From: Pyrodictiaceae archaeon
GTDB taxonomy: Archaea > Thermoproteota > Thermoprotei_A > Sulfolobales > Pyrodictiaceae
DNA length: 64,000 bases
Direction: 5' to 3'
Assembly: GCA_027036135.1 (NCBI GenBank)
Contig: JALVSY010000030.1
Location: forward strand, 217,501 to 281,500
Positions 10,865-19,168 of the stretch are shown in pieces. The position numbers and the translations under genes were made by a program. The notes beneath the pieces are model-generated. The model saw only the letters and a list, made by a program, of their open reading frames with translations. It had not been told where the DNA came from and searched no databases. Every line of letters starts with the position of its first letter. Position 1 is the first letter of the stretch.

Positions 10865-10910
10865 TGGCGCCGCGGCCGGGATTTGAACCCGGGTCACGGG
10901 CTTGACAGGC
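10865..10910 (-). repeat. Left attachment site: orphan 3' half of tRNA-Asp
   Basis: 46 bases identical to 19091-19136. It contains the T-arm, the 3' acceptor strand and encoded CCA of tRNA-Asp up to the anticodon loop, and then homology stops abruptly. This is the displaced host 3' half left when the element entered, so the crossover lies within these 46 bases. Confidence 0.95.
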
Positions 10911-11249
10911 TTGAGAGTATATAAACTAACGTTGCATGTATGCAACTTCAATCATGCAACATAACTCGCTAGATTAATGAGCAATTCTGGTTCTAGTTCT
11001 TGATTCGACTGCAAAAAGGTAATGCAGCTCAATGATATTAAGTTCTGTATTAACTTTAGTCCCGGTAAACCGCATTATGCAGGTATATTTTTGTCTATAC
11101 CCTTGCCTAGACTGTGCTAAAGTTTCTACGACAATAAAATGATCGGGGGAACACGGGAAACTATACTATATCTCGTTCTTTACTACCTGTGTATATACAT
11201 CAGTTCAAAAAGCCAAATCAATTGTATACGGGAAGTATAGACTTTAGCA
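10911..11249. other. Non-coding left end of the element with GTTGCAT/ATGCAAC motifs
   Basis: No gene seen in 339 bases. At 10931-10946 an inverted pair GTTGCAT/ATGCAAC with a 2-base spacer is followed by CATGCAAC at 10953-10960. The same GTTGCA word recurs three times at 19019-19060 near the other attachment site, so these are likely integrase arm-type or accessory sites. An origin function cannot be excluded. Confidence 0.55.
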
Positions 11250-11798
11250 CTAATAATAGTATGTTATTGAGACTACTTGTGTAGCACCGCTGATAAAGTT
11301 GCTATTACCTACTCTAACCTCAATAGTTCCCGGGAGAACTGGGAATACTGCGCTACCCTCAGAGCCCACATAGACTTTTTGGTCAAAGGAGGTGCCATAA
11401 GAGTGATATACAACTTCTACATAAGTCTTATCTGTTGTTGATGAGTGCACTGTAACCACTATGTAGCCGGCGTAGTTGATGTGGAATCTCCAGTACATAT
11501 AGGAGGAGGCTGGCTCATTAATAGTCTCGTGGCTCACTAGTGTCTTTGAGAGCCTTAGATTAACTATATCCTCTAGCCGAGATAATTGGTTTTGGCAAGC
11601 GTTAAGCTCTCTTTGCAAGGCACTGATCTGGGACTCAAGATCGCTAGTTGATCTTGCACCAACCGTTTGACTTATTTCGTTTAGCTTAGACTTGTAGTGG
11701 TAGTAGGTGTATCCCCATCCTATAGCCATTAAGACTATGATAGTGACTAGAGCCATTACTGCTGCGGACTTATTAGCGGAGGGAATGCTCTCCGCCAA
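11250..11798 (-). CDS. Single-pass membrane protein with coiled coil and extracellular beta domain
   Basis: Family not recognised. 182 residues: a short polar N-terminus, one membrane helix at about residues 12-32 (VMALVTIIVLMAIGWGYTYY), a coiled coil at about 36-80, and a beta-strand-rich C-terminal domain of about 95 residues. The layout suggests a cell-surface or virion-type anchored protein. It is the last gene of the leftward run in the element, well separated from the replication genes, and has its own upstream AT-rich region. Its job may be surface attachment, exclusion or transfer, but this is a guess. Confidence 0.6.
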   Translation of the reverse strand: MAESIPSANKSAAVMALVTIIVLMAIGWGYTYYHYKSKLNEISQTVGARSTSDLESQISALQRELNACQNQLSRLEDIVNLRLSKTLVSHETINEPASSYMYWRFHINYAGYIVVTVHSSTTDKTYVEVVYHSYGTSFDQKVYVGSEGSAVFPVLPGTIEVRVGNSNFISGATQVVSITYYY

Positions 11799-11925
11799 GT
11801 CCGCAGCACCATAGTCAATATTCCTAATATTTCATTATATAAGACTTATGTAATGTACTACCAAGTCTCGGTGTTAAGGAATAGAGTCAAAGTTATACCT
11901 GGTACTTAACTGAAGGAAGGAAATT

Positions 11926-12189
11926 CTACCTAGCACGTGTGGGCATTTTTAGTAACGCTTCTCTTAGCTGTACCATTAAGTCATAGACGTTACTACTACC
12001 TCTTAACTCTATCTTGCCGCCAGGGTAATATATAATCATTTTGTATCTGTTCAGCCAGCCATAGATAGCTATTGCTAGTCCTATTACGAAGAATACTATG
12101 AACACTATTGGGCCTAGTTCCGCGCTCAAGTTTATCCCTGCAATGTTGAGAAGCAGGGGAGCAAGGGCTATGAGGAGCCCTGCAAGCAC
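11926..12189 (-). CDS. Small membrane protein of the element, start uncertain
   Basis: Two hydrophobic helices (about residues 2-18 and 26-44) followed by a short basic, beta-like tail ending at about residue 87. No family recognised. GTG 12189 is the only usual start codon. The frame stays open and looks coding for about 60 bases further upstream (reading GEWIRDILLEAIYSVELAE), but holds no ATG, GTG or TTG. The gene may therefore use an unusual start or have lost its N-terminus. Confidence 0.5.
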   Translation of the reverse strand: MLAGLLIALAPLLLNIAGINLSAELGPIVFIVFFVIGLAIAIYGWLNRYKMIIYYPGGKIELRGSSNVYDLMVQLREALLKMPTRAR

Positions 12190-12438
12190 CAGGTCCAGTG
12201 ATTCCGCTAGTTCAACTGAGTATATTGCTTCGAGGAGTATGTCGCGGATCCATTCACCTTTATGATTATTAGGCGTAGATTTGTTATGGTGTATAGGGTG
12301 CCTTTAATTCCTCCTTGCCAGATCTTTTTCTCGCCCTCGGCGAGAACCAAGACTAGCACCCATTATTAGTGTGTCAAGAAGGACAGACTTCTATCTAGCT
12401 CCCAGACTGGTCATAGAGTTCGGCTAGGGGATGGAGCC

Positions 12439-13683
12439 TCATCTCGTTACCGCCTCTTTCTTGCCCCGCTTAATCTCTTCGAAGAACCGTTCCCTGATCT
12501 CCTCGGGTACGTGGGCTCTCGCATAGGTGTAGGTTACTGGGTTCCTATCCCAGCCACATCCGAGGCACAAGTCGTGCTGCTTCATCCGCCTACAGCTAGG
12601 CATTAACCAGTTCCGCCTAGCGCCACGCAACCCATAGGCATACTCGACCTGGTACCTCGTAACCCTCTCATTGTAATCTCTAGCATGTTTGGCGAAGAAC
12701 CCTATCACTTGCTCCTTGTCGAAACCGACCCACTTCAGGTACCAGACAAGGGCCAAGCGAGCATAGTGGTCAACATCACCACTCCTAACCATGGTCTCGA
12801 TAATGTTCCTGATACAGGGCGGCACGGCCTCGCTCCCAGCCAGCTCCTCGATGCTCCTGGGTAGGGGCTTCTTTGGCCCCCTGGTTGCCCTGGGCCTTGG
12901 TCGTAGCAGCTTGGGTCTAGGCATATCTACCTCAATCCTATAGACTGTGACTTCCCCAGGGTCTAGTGGGTTGAACATGCTCCAGTCGAAGTCCTCGGCC
13001 CCAAACCTCGGCTCTATGGGCTTTGCAAAGCCCTTATGACCCTTATTGTTCCTATTAGCGGAACAGTCATCCTTGACATTGTAAGTAAAAGGTGGCCTCG
13101 ATGGGTGCTTTGCATCATTGAACATGCTTGGATCCACTAGGGGTTTCCCGCTGCACTTTATCTGGGTGTAGCGGTAGGGCTGTATCAGGCTCCTAGCTAG
13201 TAGGACGTAGCCCTCGTAGTCCGTGGGCTTCTTGAGCGGGATAACGAGTCTTGCACCCTTACACCCGGTCACATACACTAATGGGTCTACCTGGTACCGC
13301 TCCCTAAGGCTCCTCGCAAACTCTAGTGCACGGCTCACAGCCAGCTCTGGGTCGTCTTTGCAGTCGAAATCGTATTGCACAGTATCATAGACCAGGTGCT
13401 CAGCCCCTAGATCAATCTCCCCAGTTACCGCTGCGAGGCTATACTCGGGGCGCACAGCACCAATACCTATGAAGAGATTAACGCTCCGAAACCTAGGCAT
13501 AATCACTTGATCCAAGAGGAGCTCAAAGCCCTGGACAAAGAATACCCGTCTAACCTTAACCCTTGCCCTACGAGGATCACCAATACTATAGAAGACTTCG
13601 CGAGCCTCACCAATCCCAAGAGGCCCCCTAAACCACTTCACCAAAAACTCCCTTACCTTGTTTAGGCTAACCACAATAATCAC
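12439..13683 (-). CDS. Archaeo-eukaryotic primase with PriS-like catalytic and PriL-like Fe-S domains
   Basis: A 414-residue replication protein. The N-terminal part carries AEP primase motifs: an acidic pair in YDFDCKDD (about residues 100-106), GCKGARLVI (the SGxGxH-like element) and DPSMFNDAKHPSR (about 181-193, motif III). The C-terminal part looks like the PriL Fe-S domain, with four cysteines in PPCIRN (about 289), PSCRRM (about 361), DLC (about 369) and LGC (about 372). This joins in one chain what the host encodes as PriS and PriL, as known for some mobile-element primases. It should start replication of the excised circle. It overlaps the ATPase gene upstream by 4 bases, so both are translated together. 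Confidence 0.8.
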   Translation of the reverse strand: MIIVVSLNKVREFLVKWFRGPLGIGEAREVFYSIGDPRRARVKVRRVFFVQGFELLLDQVIMPRFRSVNLFIGIGAVRPEYSLAAVTGEIDLGAEHLVYDTVQYDFDCKDDPELAVSRALEFARSLRERYQVDPLVYVTGCKGARLVIPLKKPTDYEGYVLLARSLIQPYRYTQIKCSGKPLVDPSMFNDAKHPSRPPFTYNVKDDCSANRNNKGHKGFAKPIEPRFGAEDFDWSMFNPLDPGEVTVYRIEVDMPRPKLLRPRPRATRGPKKPLPRSIEELAGSEAVPPCIRNIIETMVRSGDVDHYARLALVWYLKWVGFDKEQVIGFFAKHARDYNERVTRYQVEYAYGLRGARRNWLMPSCRRMKQHDLCLGCGWDRNPVTYTYARAHVPEEIRERFFEEIKRGKKEAVTR

Positions 13684-15494
13684 CCTTGAAGTTCTTCTCG
13701 TGATCTGACTAGATACTTGTCAATAACCTTGGCATATTTCTCGCTGACATAGGGCCTCTCGGTATCCTCAAGCACTCCTACGTGGTAGAGAACCTTCACA
13801 AGCCTGTTGATCGTTGATGGGCTCAGTTTGAGTTTCCTTGCCAACTCTCTTTGGGTTATATCAGGTTCCTCTACAAGCTTGACCACTATATCGCCTAGAG
13901 TCTTAGACGAGGAGCCCAGAGCAAGCTTTGCAGCAAGCCTCATAGCGTGATCATCTATCGTTGGAAGCCCGATTATTCGTGGAACCTGACGTATCAACGT
14001 GTTAGCTTTGACAAAGAGTGAAAGCTGCATACGCGACCTTATCGGGGTATCAGTCTGTGTAACCTCTATATCTTCCGCCCACCGGCCCCGCCCATCATCG
14101 CTTTCCTCATAGTAACGTTTTCTATGAAAAGCTACCCGTAACTTAGCGAGAAGGGTTGCTAGCACATCGAGTTCATCGCTCTTTTCAGGTAGCATTGTGG
14201 CCTTATACAAGTCATCCCTCGTTATTGATTCAAGAGCAGTTGTGAGCATAGTTGAAAGCATGCTCCTTAGCCAGATCATAAGTTTCTGAGCAGCAGGTCT
14301 CTCCAACAATAAAGCTATACGAATGGCATCTTCATCCCTAAGCTGGTAACGATAAATAAGCCATCTAGACCCATAAGCTATCATGGGACCTAAGAACTTA
14401 TTTTCATAAGTCTCAACAGTCATGTTACCGACTATGACGGTATCCACGGGAGAGGATCGTGCACCCTGTGCAGTATCCCTTCTGAAATAGCCATCATAAA
14501 CGCTCTCAAGCAGCGAAAGTATCCTTCTTGCCTCTTTTTCATCCTTTTCCGCTATTGAGCTAAGAGTCGGGAATAGTGTGACTCTGCCATGCATTTGCTC
14601 CACAAGGGCAGGCTTATCGGGCTCTGCAGGCGAAAAACTCGCATAAGTAACATCCCCCAAGCTGAGAACATACACAGAGTCTTTGATCAGTCCCGTAAAG
14701 GTTGTCTTGAGGGCACTTGGTGGCGCAACTACTAGCACCCATAGTGGGCGAGGTTGAACTAGGCCCCTTCTCCTCTCAACCACACGTAGTGTTAAGGCGC
14801 TAGTAATAGTTGTCTCTACTAAGTCTCCTATTTCGGGAGAGAAAACAAGCCTAATGAGCCTTATTATGTCCTCTATGCTTGGCTGGCCTACTAGTCGCTC
14901 TATCATTTCTGTTAGTTCTTCTCTTAATATTTGGCGTGTTTCCACTAACAGGTTAGAGGAATCCACTAAGGAGTTGATGACCTTTCTAATATCCAATTCT
15001 TCATAAGGTACCTTGTGATGTGTTTCCACGCCATATGTTTCCACACCATATAGGCGTTCTGCGCTGGGGGAAACACTTTCAAATCTTCCCAGCTTCTTCA
15101 CAAGCAATTCCTTTATGAGTTTCTTCCTTAGAAGCGTGGACCATGAGTAAATGTATTCAAAGACCTTCTCACTTATCTCATCCACATAGCCCTTTAAGAG
15201 TTCGTCACCAATATACTCGCTGTGCGCGCGTAGTGTGTCCGCTAACTCGTTCACGTTATGCGCTTCTACCTCGAATAGTGCTTCAACATCGTTGTCATTG
15301 TAGCGCCAGAAGGTTACCCTGTAGCGGGCATCTTCCTTACTCCTCTTCATACGCCGTATCTCTATCGCGTAGTGGCCTAGGATTAGAATCATTTTCTTCT
15401 TATTTATTGCTTGTAGCTCAATCGGCAAATCTACTATTTTTGGCTTGACGATTTCAACCCTATGTTCGACACTATTGTGTGGCTGCATACTCAT
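13680..15494 (-). CDS. AAA-like replication ATPase with C-terminal winged helix
   Basis: 604 residues from ATG 15494, chosen because GAGGTG precedes it by 7 bases and the Cas4-like gene stops right there. The frame is open to 15629, inside that gene. A P-loop-like motif reads APPSALKTT at about residues 256-264; it lacks the glycine before the lysine. Downstream blocks (LLESVYDGYF, IVGNMTVETYE, AYGSRWLIYRYQ) match the layout of phage/plasmid helicase-type AAA ATPases. The C-terminal 75 residues are a winged helix (QRELARKLKLSPSTINRLVKV). Being coupled to the primase gene, it is probably the helicase or origin-binding ATPase of the element. The family is not firmly identified. Confidence 0.65.
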   Translation of the reverse strand: MSMQPHNSVEHRVEIVKPKIVDLPIELQAINKKKMILILGHYAIEIRRMKRSKEDARYRVTFWRYNDNDVEALFEVEAHNVNELADTLRAHSEYIGDELLKGYVDEISEKVFEYIYSWSTLLRKKLIKELLVKKLGRFESVSPSAERLYGVETYGVETHHKVPYEELDIRKVINSLVDSSNLLVETRQILREELTEMIERLVGQPSIEDIIRLIRLVFSPEIGDLVETTITSALTLRVVERRRGLVQPRPLWVLVVAPPSALKTTFTGLIKDSVYVLSLGDVTYASFSPAEPDKPALVEQMHGRVTLFPTLSSIAEKDEKEARRILSLLESVYDGYFRRDTAQGARSSPVDTVIVGNMTVETYENKFLGPMIAYGSRWLIYRYQLRDEDAIRIALLLERPAAQKLMIWLRSMLSTMLTTALESITRDDLYKATMLPEKSDELDVLATLLAKLRVAFHRKRYYEESDDGRGRWAEDIEVTQTDTPIRSRMQLSLFVKANTLIRQVPRIIGLPTIDDHAMRLAAKLALGSSSKTLGDIVVKLVEEPDITQRELARKLKLSPSTINRLVKVLYHVGVLEDTERPYVSEKYAKVIDKYLVRSREELQG

Positions 15495-15499
15495 TGTTT

Positions 15500-16111
15500 T
15501 CACCTCTTGGCTAGGCATTGCCATTTGTATGGGCAGTGTGTGCACCATGGGCCTGGCTCTCTGGGTGGCTTTGTCCTCGTTGTTATTGCTTTGTGTAGCT
15601 TGATTGCTCTCTTTACTAGCTGGCTCCACATCCCCTTGTCTAGGCTGTGCCTGTAGACCTTGACCTCGCCGCTCCTAGCTATGTAGACTAGGTAGCCTCT
15701 CTTGGCTCTCAGCATGTAGGTGTAGGCGTTTAGTTGTAGTAGGTGGCTCCTATAGGGCTCCACTGGCAGCTTATTGGTTGTCTTGAGCTCTACGACTACT
15801 CCTTCATCGGGGTGGTAGAGGTCTGCGTGCCCCACTAGCCAGAACTCTCCCACCCTGTACCTTGCCTCGACCTCTACTAGCCATCCCTTCCCTGTTAGGA
15901 GCTCCTGTAGCTTCTCGTGAACCCCATTACCAATCAACATCACAACGTTGCTTGGGTCGAGGGCTGGGCGCGGCCAAGTACGCTCATAGTAGGCGCGTCT
16001 CAGACAGCCAGCAGCCTCACTAACATGGATCCTGTCAAGACTATAGACTCTCCTACGCTTCTCGACAAGCTCGCGGAACCAGCCATAAACAGTCTCAGCA
16101 GTAAGCAACAC
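15500..16111 (-). CDS. Cas4-like PD-(D/E)XK nuclease with Fe-S cluster
   Basis: 203 residues with the Cas4/RecB-like nuclease signature: an N-terminal cysteine in SEAAGCLRRAYYE, the catalytic Asp in VGHADLY and VVELKTT (ExK), then a conserved QLNAY and a C-terminal CTHCPYKWQC. Four cysteines would hold a [4Fe-4S] cluster. Cas4-like proteins are 5'-3' exonucleases. Without any cas1/cas2 or CRISPR array here, it most likely serves replication or recombination of the element. The gene lies between the wHTH protein (2-base gap) and the ATPase, whose ribosome-binding site is inside its last codons. Confidence 0.85.
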   Translation of the reverse strand: MLLTAETVYGWFRELVEKRRRVYSLDRIHVSEAAGCLRRAYYERTWPRPALDPSNVVMLIGNGVHEKLQELLTGKGWLVEVEARYRVGEFWLVGHADLYHPDEGVVVELKTTNKLPVEPYRSHLLQLNAYTYMLRAKRGYLVYIARSGEVKVYRHSLDKGMWSQLVKRAIKLHKAITTRTKPPREPGPWCTHCPYKWQCLAKR

Positions 16112-16113
16112 AG

Positions 16114-16515
16114 CTACCGCCTCTTGAAGCCTTCTTTGAGAACCCAGTAGGGGCAGATCCCGGCAAGGCCGCAGACTGTGCCTTCGCTTTCGCAGCGGAA
16201 GCGCTGCCTACGACTACTACAGCGTTTGATGAACTCTCTCCACAATGTCTTGGGCTTCAAGGTGTACCTTACAGGGCGGCTACCATTATGCCTCTCAGCC
16301 AGCCCAAGCCTCTCCAAGAGGGCTAGGAGCTTGCCTAGCTGAGTAACCCAGTAATGATTATAGCCATAGATTGCCGCCAGATCCCTGGCCTTGACATAAA
16401 GGCTCCGCTTAGTAGAGACCACATCAATTAACAGGGACAGAGCCTTAACCATCTGCTTCTCGTTAGCAGCAGCGTTTTTTGGAGAAGAAAACGCGCCAAA
16501 AACTTGGGCTGCCAT
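16114..16515 (-). CDS. Winged-helix DNA-binding protein with cysteine-rich tail
   Basis: 133 residues. Residues about 20-80 form a winged helix (ARDLAAIYGYNHYWVTQLGKLL and GLAERHNGSRPVRYTL as the wing). The C-terminus has four cysteines in CSSRRQRFRCESEGTVCGLAGICPY, enough for a small metal or Fe-S site. The start at 16515 is supported by GAGGAGGT 9 bases upstream. It heads the replication operon, so it could be the origin-binding or regulatory protein. No named family recognised. Confidence 0.65.
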   Translation of the reverse strand: MAAQVFGAFSSPKNAAANEKQMVKALSLLIDVVSTKRSLYVKARDLAAIYGYNHYWVTQLGKLLALLERLGLAERHNGSRPVRYTLKPKTLWREFIKRCSSRRQRFRCESEGTVCGLAGICPYWVLKEGFKRR

Positions 16516-16574
16516 CTTAGTCGTTACCTCCTCTTCTTGTTTTTGAAACCTTTGCCTAGCTTAGTTACCTAGTT

Positions 16575-16757
16575 CTAATCATCGCTGTCTATCACTAAGT
16601 AGACCTTGACCTTCTTGCCCTTGGCGTGTAGCTCGCTCCAAAGGTCATTATACATTGTGGGCAAGTAGATCTTGTAGCGCTTGGTCTCCTTTACTATACC
16701 TCTCCTGCCAAGATATAATGATGTAGCTCTAACAATTAGGCTTGAATCGGTACTCAT
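16575..16757 (-). CDS. Small (60 aa) element protein, AbrB-like possibility
   Basis: A basic 60-residue protein whose second half (KRYKIYLPTMYNDLWSEL then KKVKVYLVI) resembles short beta-rich swapped-hairpin regulators of crenarchaeal plasmids. It is the first leftward gene beyond the divergent promoter, with ATG 16757. A role as a transcription regulator or copy-number protein is inference only. Confidence 0.5.
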   Translation of the reverse strand: MSTDSSLIVRATSLYLGRRGIVKETKRYKIYLPTMYNDLWSELHAKGKKVKVYLVIDSDD

Positions 16758-16825
16758 GTGCTACACACCGTGTATATGATTATGTGAGCACGAAAATAGG
16801 GATTTCTAGAACCTTTTTTATTCTG

Positions 16826-16839
16826 TGTATCCGGATACA
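16826..16839. promoter_or_regulatory. Perfect 14-bp palindrome, candidate operator
   Basis: TGTATCCGGATACA is a perfect inverted repeat in the 106-base gap between the divergent 60-aa gene and the rightward wHTH gene. It lies between an AT-rich stretch (CTTTTTTATTC, 16813-16823) that could be the TATA region and the GAGGAGGT ribosome-binding site at 16848. Its place fits autorepression by the wHTH protein encoded just downstream. Confidence 0.55.
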
Positions 16840-16863
16840 GGCACATAGAGGAGGTCTGCGAAA

Positions 16864-17721
16864 ATGGGGGATTCTGAACCCAGGTCTATAGAACTGTTGA
16901 GAGAATTTAGCGAACTAATACCTCAATTCAGAGAATTCGTTGAAAATATTGTTACTAATGTATTGAGTATGTCTTACCAGGAGGGTGTGGTCTATATGAG
17001 TATTGCTGGTCTCAGCGATATCACGCAGAGCAATGTTATTAGTGTGCTTAAAGCGAAGCTTGGAATCGATGAAGGAAGAGCTAGATATATTCTCCGAAGG
17101 CTTGCAGAGTATGGTCTTATTGATAGAAAGGAGATAAAAGGTAAACAAGGCCGTACTTATCTCTTATCTGCGCCTAGTTGGCGTCTAAGACTTGTTCTAG
17201 CGCTAGTGTGCTCCCCGAGCTTAATATCGATCACCTTGCTTCCCCTATGCGAAGAACTAGTAATGCTTGGCACGGATGAGCAATGGGAGAACGGCTTACC
17301 AAAAATACGCCACCTCTACTTACAATACATCAAGCTTGTCCTCAATAACCTATCTGCGCAGAGACAAGGTGACGTAGATAATAGGGCCAGGAAAAAACGT
17401 TCCACGTCATTCTCTTCTATAAGAATGCCAGGCCTCCTCGCTGTAGCTCAATATATAGACTTTGTCACGGCCTTACTAGCGGCCAAGATTCTTATTCCGG
17501 GTAACCAGTTCAGCAGCCTAGTAAATGAGCTAAGAAGATATAACGAGAACGACGTTGCAGACCTATTTAACTATGCTCGTGAGTCTAAATCCCTAGCCAA
17601 GTTCATTGAAGGACACGAGGATCCGTGCAAGCTCTTACTAGCCATAAAATCATCAATCACCTTGTCGCCAAGTCACATGCTCCTAGTACGAAAACTCCTC
17701 AAGAAGCAAACAGTAAATTAA
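16864..17721 (+). CDS. wHTH-domain protein of the element (possible regulator)
   Basis: 285 residues. The N-terminal third carries a helix-turn-helix with a wing (ITQSNVISVLKAKLGID, ARYILRRLAEYGLIDRKE, KQGRTYLLS), typical of archaeal wHTH regulators. The rest is helical and matches no family known to me. ATG 16864 follows a good GAGGAGGT site. It is the only rightward gene of the element and overlaps the integrase gene tail-to-tail by 23 bases. It may bind the palindrome in front of it and govern lysogeny-like maintenance. Confidence 0.6.
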   Translation: MGDSEPRSIELLREFSELIPQFREFVENIVTNVLSMSYQEGVVYMSIAGLSDITQSNVISVLKAKLGIDEGRARYILRRLAEYGLIDRKEIKGKQGRTYLLSAPSWRLRLVLALVCSPSLISITLLPLCEELVMLGTDEQWENGLPKIRHLYLQYIKLVLNNLSAQRQGDVDNRARKKRSTSFSSIRMPGLLAVAQYIDFVTALLAAKILIPGNQFSSLVNELRRYNENDVADLFNYARESKSLAKFIEGHEDPCKLLLAIKSSITLSPSHMLLVRKLLKKQTVN

Positions 17722-19036
17722 AGATATGCAAAATATATTTTTGATATTTTTCGTCTGTTTCTCCTAATAGGTCGCTGTATCTTCTCTCGCTTACCCTGAG
17801 TTCTCCGAAGCGGCTCTGGGCGAAGGCTGCTGCTTCGTAGCCCATTGTCTTCCTCATAAGCTGCCACGCTATCTTCCTGAGGTACTTCGGCCTTATTAGG
17901 CCGTGTCTTTTAGCGTACCTCGTGACTAGCTCGCGTCTGAGCTGCTTGCTTAGGAGCTCCGTCTCTCTTAGTAGCTCTAGTGTCTCCTTTGCGAGGTATA
18001 GCCATTCGCAGGGCTTGTTCCCCTCTCTCAGGCCTAGGTAGTAGCGGCAGAACCCCTGCTCGGGGCAGACTAGCCTAGGGGTGAACCCGTAGCCAGGGAT
18101 CTCTACCTGCTCCTCTGGCCGCCACACAGCTAGCATCCTGAGAGCATGCTCCAGCCTTGCACCACTCTCTAGCATTAGGCGGTAGAGCGCGTAGTAGCCC
18201 CGGTGGTTCTGTCTTAGATGTTCAAGGGTCTTCCTCAGCTCTTCTAGGTTGATGGGGTAGACTCTTATGTCTAGCTTGTAGCTCCTAGAGGGCACTACTT
18301 CTAGTATCCATGCCATTGTTTCTCCGCTTATCCTTCTCTTGTGGTATAGGTAGCGAATGTAGTGCCTAAACACATTGCGTAGCCAGCCGTTTTTGTGTCT
18401 AGCGATTTGCTCTACTAGTTCCTCGCTGAGCTCCTTGCCTTCTAGCTCGCGTTTGAAGAGGTTGCGGTACTTCCTTAGCTGCTCCTCTGTCAATACCTTT
18501 CTGCGCTTCTTCCTCTCCCGCAGGTAGTGCTCGAAGTCCTCGCTCCACTCTAGCTTGACGCCCGCTAGGGATAGGCCGAGCATCTTCTTGAGGTCCTCTC
18601 TGAACTCCTGGGCAACGAAGCGGAGAATAGCGTTCTTCAAGTACTCATCGTTCTTAGCGAGCGCCAAGACCTCTAAGGCCAACCCGTAGTCTATGCCGCC
18701 GTCCTCGCCTAGTATGCCCAGAGCCCTAAGCCTATCAGAGGCAGCAACCAGGCTCTCGAACTCACTCCTAGAGACAAGCCCAGAGGAGAAGAGTCTGAGG
18801 AAGCGCTCGTCTGGTACCTCTAGCCTCTTGTTCAGGTAGCGGTTGAGAGTATACCTACTAACACCCAGGGCCTCGAGGACACGCCTCTGCCCATACTTCT
18901 CTACAGCATAGCGCAGAACCCTGAGCTTGGTCCCAGGGTCTAGCCTAGAGGGGTCTAGCTGAGAGTACCAACCCACGCCCAGGAACCCGTGATAAGCGGG
19001 ATGGATTCTCATACTTATGTTGCACGGCTGAGACAT
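17699..19036 (-). CDS. int: Tyrosine recombinase (integrase) of the element
   Basis: An archaeal-type tyrosine integrase that would recombine the element with tRNA-Asp. The C-terminal catalytic part shows the box I arginine in LESGARLEHALRML, a box II-like PKYLRKIAWQLM (K/R in place of the canonical HxxR), and the nucleophile tyrosine region SERRYSDLLGETDEKY. The middle is a helical core-binding domain with a helix-turn-helix (RRVLEALGVSRYTLNRYL) near residue 75. The frame runs back to 19123, inside the tRNA, where it merely translates tRNA sequence. ATG 19036 (or 19012) is the realistic start. It is complete, so integration does not inactivate it. Confidence 0.85.
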   Translation of the reverse strand: MSQPCNISMRIHPAYHGFLGVGWYSQLDPSRLDPGTKLRVLRYAVEKYGQRRVLEALGVSRYTLNRYLNKRLEVPDERFLRLFSSGLVSRSEFESLVAASDRLRALGILGEDGGIDYGLALEVLALAKNDEYLKNAILRFVAQEFREDLKKMLGLSLAGVKLEWSEDFEHYLRERKKRRKVLTEEQLRKYRNLFKRELEGKELSEELVEQIARHKNGWLRNVFRHYIRYLYHKRRISGETMAWILEVVPSRSYKLDIRVYPINLEELRKTLEHLRQNHRGYYALYRLMLESGARLEHALRMLAVWRPEEQVEIPGYGFTPRLVCPEQGFCRYYLGLREGNKPCEWLYLAKETLELLRETELLSKQLRRELVTRYAKRHGLIRPKYLRKIAWQLMRKTMGYEAAAFAQSRFGELRVSERRYSDLLGETDEKYQKYILHIFNLLFAS

Positions 19037-19060
19037 GAACCATGCAACGTAGAGTTGCAC
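19019..19060. repeat. GTTGCA motifs next to the right attachment site
   Basis: GTTGCAC at 19019, CATGCAAC at 19041 and GTTGCAC at 19054 lie 31-72 bases inside the element. They mirror three copies of the same word 21-50 bases inside the other end (10931-10960). They overlap the first codons of int, so binding here could also control integrase expression. Confidence 0.5.
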
Positions 19061-19090
19061 GAGGAGTTGATAGGAGAGGCGTTGAGGATT

Positions 19091-19136
19091 TGGCGCCGCG
19101 GCCGGGATTTGAACCCGGGTCACGGGCTTGACAGGC
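19091..19136 (-). repeat. Right attachment site within tRNA-Asp
   Basis: Identical over 46 bases to 10865-10910. It spans the anticodon loop to CCA and completes the functional tRNA on integration. Confidence 0.95.
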
Positions 19137-19168
19137 CCGCATACTAGGCCAGGCTATACTACCGCGGC
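19091..19168 (-). tRNA. tRNA-Asp(GTC), CCA encoded; attachment site of the element
   Basis: The minus strand starts GCCGCGG and ends CCGCGGC-G-CCA. The acceptor, D (GUAU/AGUAU), anticodon (GGGC-CUGUCAA-GCCC) and T arms (CCGGG/CCCGG with UUCAAAU) all form. The anticodon is GUC. There is no intron. Bases 19091-19136 belong to the att repeat, so the present 3' half was brought in by the element. Confidence 0.95.

Follow-up and report, generated by a model that had tools for sequence, protein, structure and literature searches.

The window analysed here comprises 64,000 nt of a Pyrodictiaceae archaeon (GCA_027036135.1, contig JALVSY010000030.1, positions 217,501–281,500 of the forward strand). 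Coordinates are those of the window; labels with L and G denote loci and genomes of relatives, and G000 is the genome that holds the window element. An intact tRNA-Asp(GTC) gene predicted by ARAGORN (19091–19168, minus strand) contains a 46-bp sequence (19091–19136) that recurs as an exact direct repeat at 10865–10910 (minus strand), where the 3' half of the tRNA is present without the 5' half. A repeat search places the two copies at a spacing of 8,226 bp, which bears out the perfect tRNA-Asp repeat given in the preliminary description and provides the 3' part of a tRNA at both ends that characterizes tRNA-targeted integrative elements. Nine main ORFs of the ORF list lie between these att copies, and the GC content toward the far end is ~0.39–0.44, compared with mostly at least 0.5 in the flanks.

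A second genome of the same genus (G004) carries a single 46-bp copy at the syntenic tRNA-Asp and has conserved flanks but no element, which supports an insertion in the window genome. Because ~3 kb adjoining the tRNA-Asp of G004 are not conserved, this empty site is not base-exact for the window copy. The preliminary description had listed strains with the repeat but without the insert as grounds for refutation; they actually represent empty sites, and the G004 case speaks for insertion. In G003, the same tRNA-Asp contains a decayed integrase of the window type. Conserved tRNA 3' halves recur across the genome and could mimic such a boundary by chance or through an assembly artefact, but the 46 bp are free of mismatches, adjoin an integrase gene, and are accompanied by conserved arms; such an origin is refuted by independent syntenic relatives elsewhere and retains virtually no likelihood.

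The gene adjacent to the tRNA encodes a tyrosine integrase with an N-terminal HTH (17699–19123, minus strand; PF16795, 2e-20; phrog_5127, 7e-19), in agreement with the earlier assignment. The 474-aa ORF is whole, and the nucleophilic Tyr was recognized by eye; the GTG start of the original ORF list was corrected to a probable ATG at ~19036. The catalytic motif KYLR, the R..KxxR..Y signature, and the match to PF16795 are those of SSV-type integrases, yet the gene is not split on integration, as in the suicidal SSV type, but is retained as an undivided ORF at one side of the element. The N-terminal two thirds match integrases of Sulfolobales plasmids, including the pNOB8 type (24–29%), and the C-terminal half matches SSV integrases (25–29%; PMC8371274), all of which likewise target tRNA genes. 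Unlike pNOB8-type plasmids, the window element has no conjugation genes. Integrases of its type are present in 38 of the 214 genomes of the order.

Both ends of the element carry inverted repeats next to the att core. The far arm (10911–10973, minus strand) consists of a 30-nt inverted repeat, GTTGCATG...CATGCAAC, and a TATA box, TTTATATA, that is directed into att; the near arm (19019–19048, minus strand; located by its offset to att) is a 30-nt inverted repeat across the probable start codon of the integrase. Among the seven elements with both ends known, 12 of the 14 arms contain an inverted repeat of ~30 nt close to the core (1.2 expected from shuffles). The half-sites vary among elements, but within an element those of the two arms mostly agree (by eye); the integrase probably uses these repeats as its arm sites.

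In a scan for TATA-like boxes, five elements had the box on the integrase side, and the window element and a sister element in the same genome had it at the far end. In a circle, the TATA box of the window element would lie 28 nt before an in-frame GTG (19123), which is the spacing of a leaderless transcript, and ~115 nt before the better supported start (ATG 19036). It is conceivable, as a hypothesis only, that the integrase promoter of the window element is located at the far end and becomes joined to the gene only in the circle. The bacterial element ICEKp1 provides a precedent for such a switch, likewise with a far-end promoter that precedes int in the circle alone (PMC13023037), whereas in the archaeal window element the switch would be read from no more than the TATA box and its spacing. 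As a general rule, the switch was rejected because the five other elements carry the box on the integrase side. The integrase ORF might alternatively continue, on the circle, into the far arm and have a small split N-terminus. This reading was set aside: its frame is open, but no evident codon bias emerges by eye from the five differences between the window element and its sister, and the integrase genes of other elements begin after att.

The central part of the element is occupied by an operon that ends with a 414-aa primase (12439–13683, minus strand), in which a PrimPol-type AEP domain is followed by a PriL C-terminal Fe-S domain (PF04104, 7e-19; matches to PriL family models down to 3e-21). 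With an AF2 model of the protein (pLDDT 86.7), Foldseek retrieved the primase domains of RepB', CAPP, LigD, and Pri1 as well as the Fe-S domain of yeast PriL. Of the "one-chain PriS-PriL" primase initially proposed, the PriL-type domain was retained, but the chain comprises a PrimPol-type and an Fe-S domain only; the full PriL with its N-terminal domain that defines cellular PriS-PriL is lacking, and only positions 105–205 of the 266 profile positions were matched. Motif I (DxD) and motif III (D184) are invariant among 12 relatives, and all their residues are retained in the window primase. In motif IV, R196 is invariant and N202 is present in 10 of the 12 relatives, which, judged from this motif alone, would place the enzyme in the PrimPol-PV1 supergroup. 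At the motif II position, the primases have Arg, His, or Gly, and Arg replaces His in the window primase. Seven of the 12 relatives retain all four Fe-S cysteines; the others (L071, L077, L045, L080, and L081) have a different domain at the same place. At one locus (L073:9809–10997), the primase is divided into two ORFs at the boundary between the catalytic and the Fe-S domain.

An AEP domain and a PriL-like Fe-S domain in one chain are also found in PolpTN2 of the pTN2-like Thermococcus plasmids, which are small archaeal plasmids as well (PMC3973330, PMC5862659). Motif IV of PolpTN2 has its Arg and Asn six residues apart (PMC5862659), and this spacing is common to the PolpTN2 motif (RAPLTFN) and that of the window primase (RPPFTYN). 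However, PolpTN2 has ~920 aa and unites AEP, PriCT-1, PriL-like, and WH domains, compared with only AEP and Fe-S domains in the 414 aa of the window primase, and a profile comparison of the two gave no domain-wide match (probability <2%). Moreover, pTN2 carries a gene annotated as ATP-dependent helicase, whereas the partner in the window family is a D5-like, DUF3631-like, or type A ATPase, and the window element differs from pTN2-like plasmids in being integrated and encoding an integrase.

The gene preceding the primase encodes an ATPase/helicase-like partner with a type A motor and a C-terminal wHTH domain (13680–15494, minus strand; PF13412, 1e-7), and its stop codon overlaps the primase start (GTGA). 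A GAGGTGA motif precedes ATG 15494, to which the start was corrected from the GTG at 15629 listed originally. Of the "AAA-like ATPase" described before, the C-terminal wHTH domain could be added, but no motor family was recognized by the family models. The Walker motifs seem degenerate by eye (APPSALKTT, with Walker B not clear), and a visual reading of the protein as MCM-like was dropped (AF2 pLDDT 49).

Upstream of the ATPase, the Cas4-like PD-(D/E)XK nuclease (15500–16111, minus strand) was identified correctly from the outset, as TIGR00372 matches above its cut-off (1e-18; phrog_1706, 6e-36). Like the MGE-Cas4 nucleases (PMC5704561), it is a Cas4-family nuclease that is located on a mobile element and outside a cas operon; what differs is that here, in most related loci, Cas4 shares an operon with an AEP primase. 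No other defence gene was matched. The adjoining 133-aa protein (16114–16515, minus strand) is conserved beside Cas4 and has relatives in L044, L071, L074, L075, and L076. It resembles a wHTH protein by eye and has a Cys-rich C-terminal tail but no match in the family-model library, so that, of the two wHTH proteins originally reported, the family models support only the 285-aa one, and weakly. A 60-aa protein follows (16575–16757, minus strand; 67% identical in the sister element and 34% in L072).

The 285-aa wHTH protein (16864–17721, plus strand; weak match to HTH_27) is encoded divergently from the replication operon and has a wHTH-like counterpart in a matching divergent position in L044. 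The sequence between the divergent genes includes a 14-bp palindrome, TGTATCCGGATACA (16826–16839), as a probable operator, and the protein itself is a probable repressor of the operon.

The "complete" and "self-sufficient" replication module of the preliminary description goes beyond what this gene content shows: the searches revealed neither a DNA polymerase nor a ligase or sliding clamp in the window element, which implies a need for host replication proteins, and no replication origin was identified within it. In the proposed course of integration, the element would be a circle of 8,226 bp whose 46-bp att is recombined by the integrase with the tRNA-Asp 3' half, the tRNA staying intact. 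In the circle, the products of the orf133-cas4-ATPase-primase operon would open and prime the DNA, whose replication would then be completed by host polymerases, and the divergent wHTH protein would probably keep the operon silent. Taken alone, autonomous replication of the window element appears fairly probable.

The far end of the element encodes a 182-aa cargo protein (11250–11798, minus strand) with, by eye, an N-terminal membrane helix, a coiled coil, and a beta-rich C-terminus; its matches are limited to weak ones with coiled-coil (spanin-like) proteins. Toward its far end, the sister element likewise encodes a membrane protein that has a beta-rich domain (L009:4573–4983), but sequence similarity between the two was not detectable. 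Three-frame translation revealed a frameshifted small membrane-protein gene at 11926–12359 (minus strand; ORFs 12207–12359 and 11926–12189), and the 87-aa ORF that had been listed as a separate gene is its back half. The front half resembles a PH-type domain (by eye).

These two proteins might be virion proteins of a provirus with unrecognized capsid genes, and the catalytic half of the integrase is similar to those of spindle-shaped viruses. Such an origin seems quite improbable, because no capsid family was matched, only ~1.3 kb remain for virion genes (one of them broken), and the matches of the element to IMG/VR and phage records are confined to the integrase and, weakly, to 21% of the primase. 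As stated before, neither capsid nor conjugation genes are apparent: searches of Pfam, PHROGs, and NCBIfam found no capsid or packaging genes and no relaxase or VirB4/TraG above the cut-off. The repeat, the intact tRNA, the integrase, and the relatives in the order uphold the original reading of a tRNA-Asp-integrated plasmid-like element, and it is very probable that the window element is an integrated mobile replicon.

The gene block sought in other genomes as a check on that reading does occur there: the wHTH, Cas4, ATPase, and primase genes recur, completely or in part, in further genomes of the order. The catalytic domain of the primase was found in 23 of the 214 genomes, and within the genus and family of the window element only here. 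A Desulfurococcales MAG (G028; contig putatively JALWQH010000044.1) has int, wHTH, orf133, Cas4, ATPase, and primase in the same order and orientation as the window, between 86-bp perfect repeats that are 8,753 bp apart at the 3' end of a tRNA. Its integrase is only a distant relative (31%) and antisense to the tRNA, suggesting that the integrase has been exchanged while the operon stayed. Further loci include one Staphylothermus MAG and one Thermodiscus MAG among their named records. Weak primase matches across the phylum are mostly ORFs of ~290–360 aa and probably represent cellular or LigD-like primases. In the plasmid (PLSDB), phage, and IMG/VR collections, the primase has no close or full-length relative, which points to a seemingly undescribed family of Desulfurococcales replicons. 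The window element is therefore best read as an integrative plasmid-like replicon of a new, mosaic family.

The mosaic extends to the motor. By mutual similarity, three motor types occupy the same operon position: type A (window, L078, and L079), type B with DUF5906/D5_N (L044, L071, L072, L073, L080, and L081), and type C with a weak DUF3631 match (L074, L076, L077, and L045). In profile comparisons, the N-terminal ~110 residues proved to be related across the types, with probabilities of 97.3% for A and B (E 1.7e-11), 69.6% for B and C, and 37.8% for A and C; column-shuffled controls never exceeded 1.5%, and the link between A and C is weak taken alone. Primases with Fe-S and with Fe-S-free C-termini each occur with motors B and C, and type A was seen with the Fe-S version only. 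Tentatively, a single primase, ending in either an Fe-S PriL or an Fe-S-free domain, may employ interchangeable motors (type A, D5/SF3-like DUF5906, or DUF3631-like) through an N-terminal tether, and in the window lineage, integration may cut the integrase from its far-end promoter.

A family of small mobile elements that keeps one primase and swaps its motor partner seems to have remained unnamed so far, and it offers a natural test of primase-helicase coupling under motor exchange. The same is true for the proposal that the C-terminal domains of MGE-type primases are homologous to the PriL Fe-S domain (PMC5862659). The family is compact, brings a primase and a swappable motor, and has a mapped att system, which makes it a candidate base for vectors in Desulfurococcales, a group that is not genetically tractable (PMC9905601).

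The sister element resides at tRNA-Glu(CTC) and is distributed over three contigs of G000 (C30:310038–310221, C28:1–5521, and C16:1–127; L047, L009, and L010), with a length of ~6,454 bp by count. It encodes an integrase 91–95% identical to that of the window, another wHTH protein, the 60-aa protein, a 759-aa P-loop protein, and a membrane protein but neither primase nor Cas4; its far end is 89–90% identical to the far arm and att of the window element over 105–109 bp. The contig ends are consistent with an assembly graph of k = 127. C28 and C30 each have exactly 127 bases in common with the window integrase, so that at least 798 bp in the centre of the gene must be identical in both elements, which indicates a recent recombination between them. 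C28 and C16 also overlap by exactly 127 bases and part at the position where the sequence continues with A in attR but with T in the predicted attP. The most plausible cause of this branch is that the sequenced DNA contained the sister element as a circle, the alternative being a dropped variant path; no third copy that shares this far arm turned up. The window copy lacks the branch expected of a circular form: its contig passes both att copies unbroken and gives no sign of a circle. In G052, contigs with an empty tRNA-Gly (C11) and with an element whose integrase is 52% identical (C108) both end in the 121-mer that starts a chromosomal contig (C55), which documents the coexistence of occupied and empty sites within a single assembly.

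The unbroken contig, the frameshifted gene near the far end, the seemingly degenerate Walker A motif, and the decayed integrases of the same type at tRNA-Gly in the same genome and at tRNA-Asp in G003 would also be compatible with a once mobile but now fixed and defective relic, with any excision depending on the integrase of the sister element. This is unlikely, because integrase, primase, Cas4, ATPase, and both att copies are all intact, and the identical integrase centres attest to recent recombination. The window element may, somewhat doubtfully, be a satellite that replicates itself and relies for its transfer on another element, on host DNA-import pili, or on vesicles. It lacks a transfer gene of its own, the genome contains two or more further elements whose integrases are of this type, and Ced import pili are known from Aeropyrum, a member of Desulfurococcales (PMC9905601), but a packaging or mobilization signal was not found. 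A third element starts on G000:C2 (L144, 12,749 bp), where an integrase gene (46% identical) is located at tRNA-Ser(GGA) and precedes the gene of a 1016-aa protein; its far end was not found on the contig. The decayed integrase at tRNA-Gly(TCC) lies next to the tRNA (G000:C16:189034–189665).
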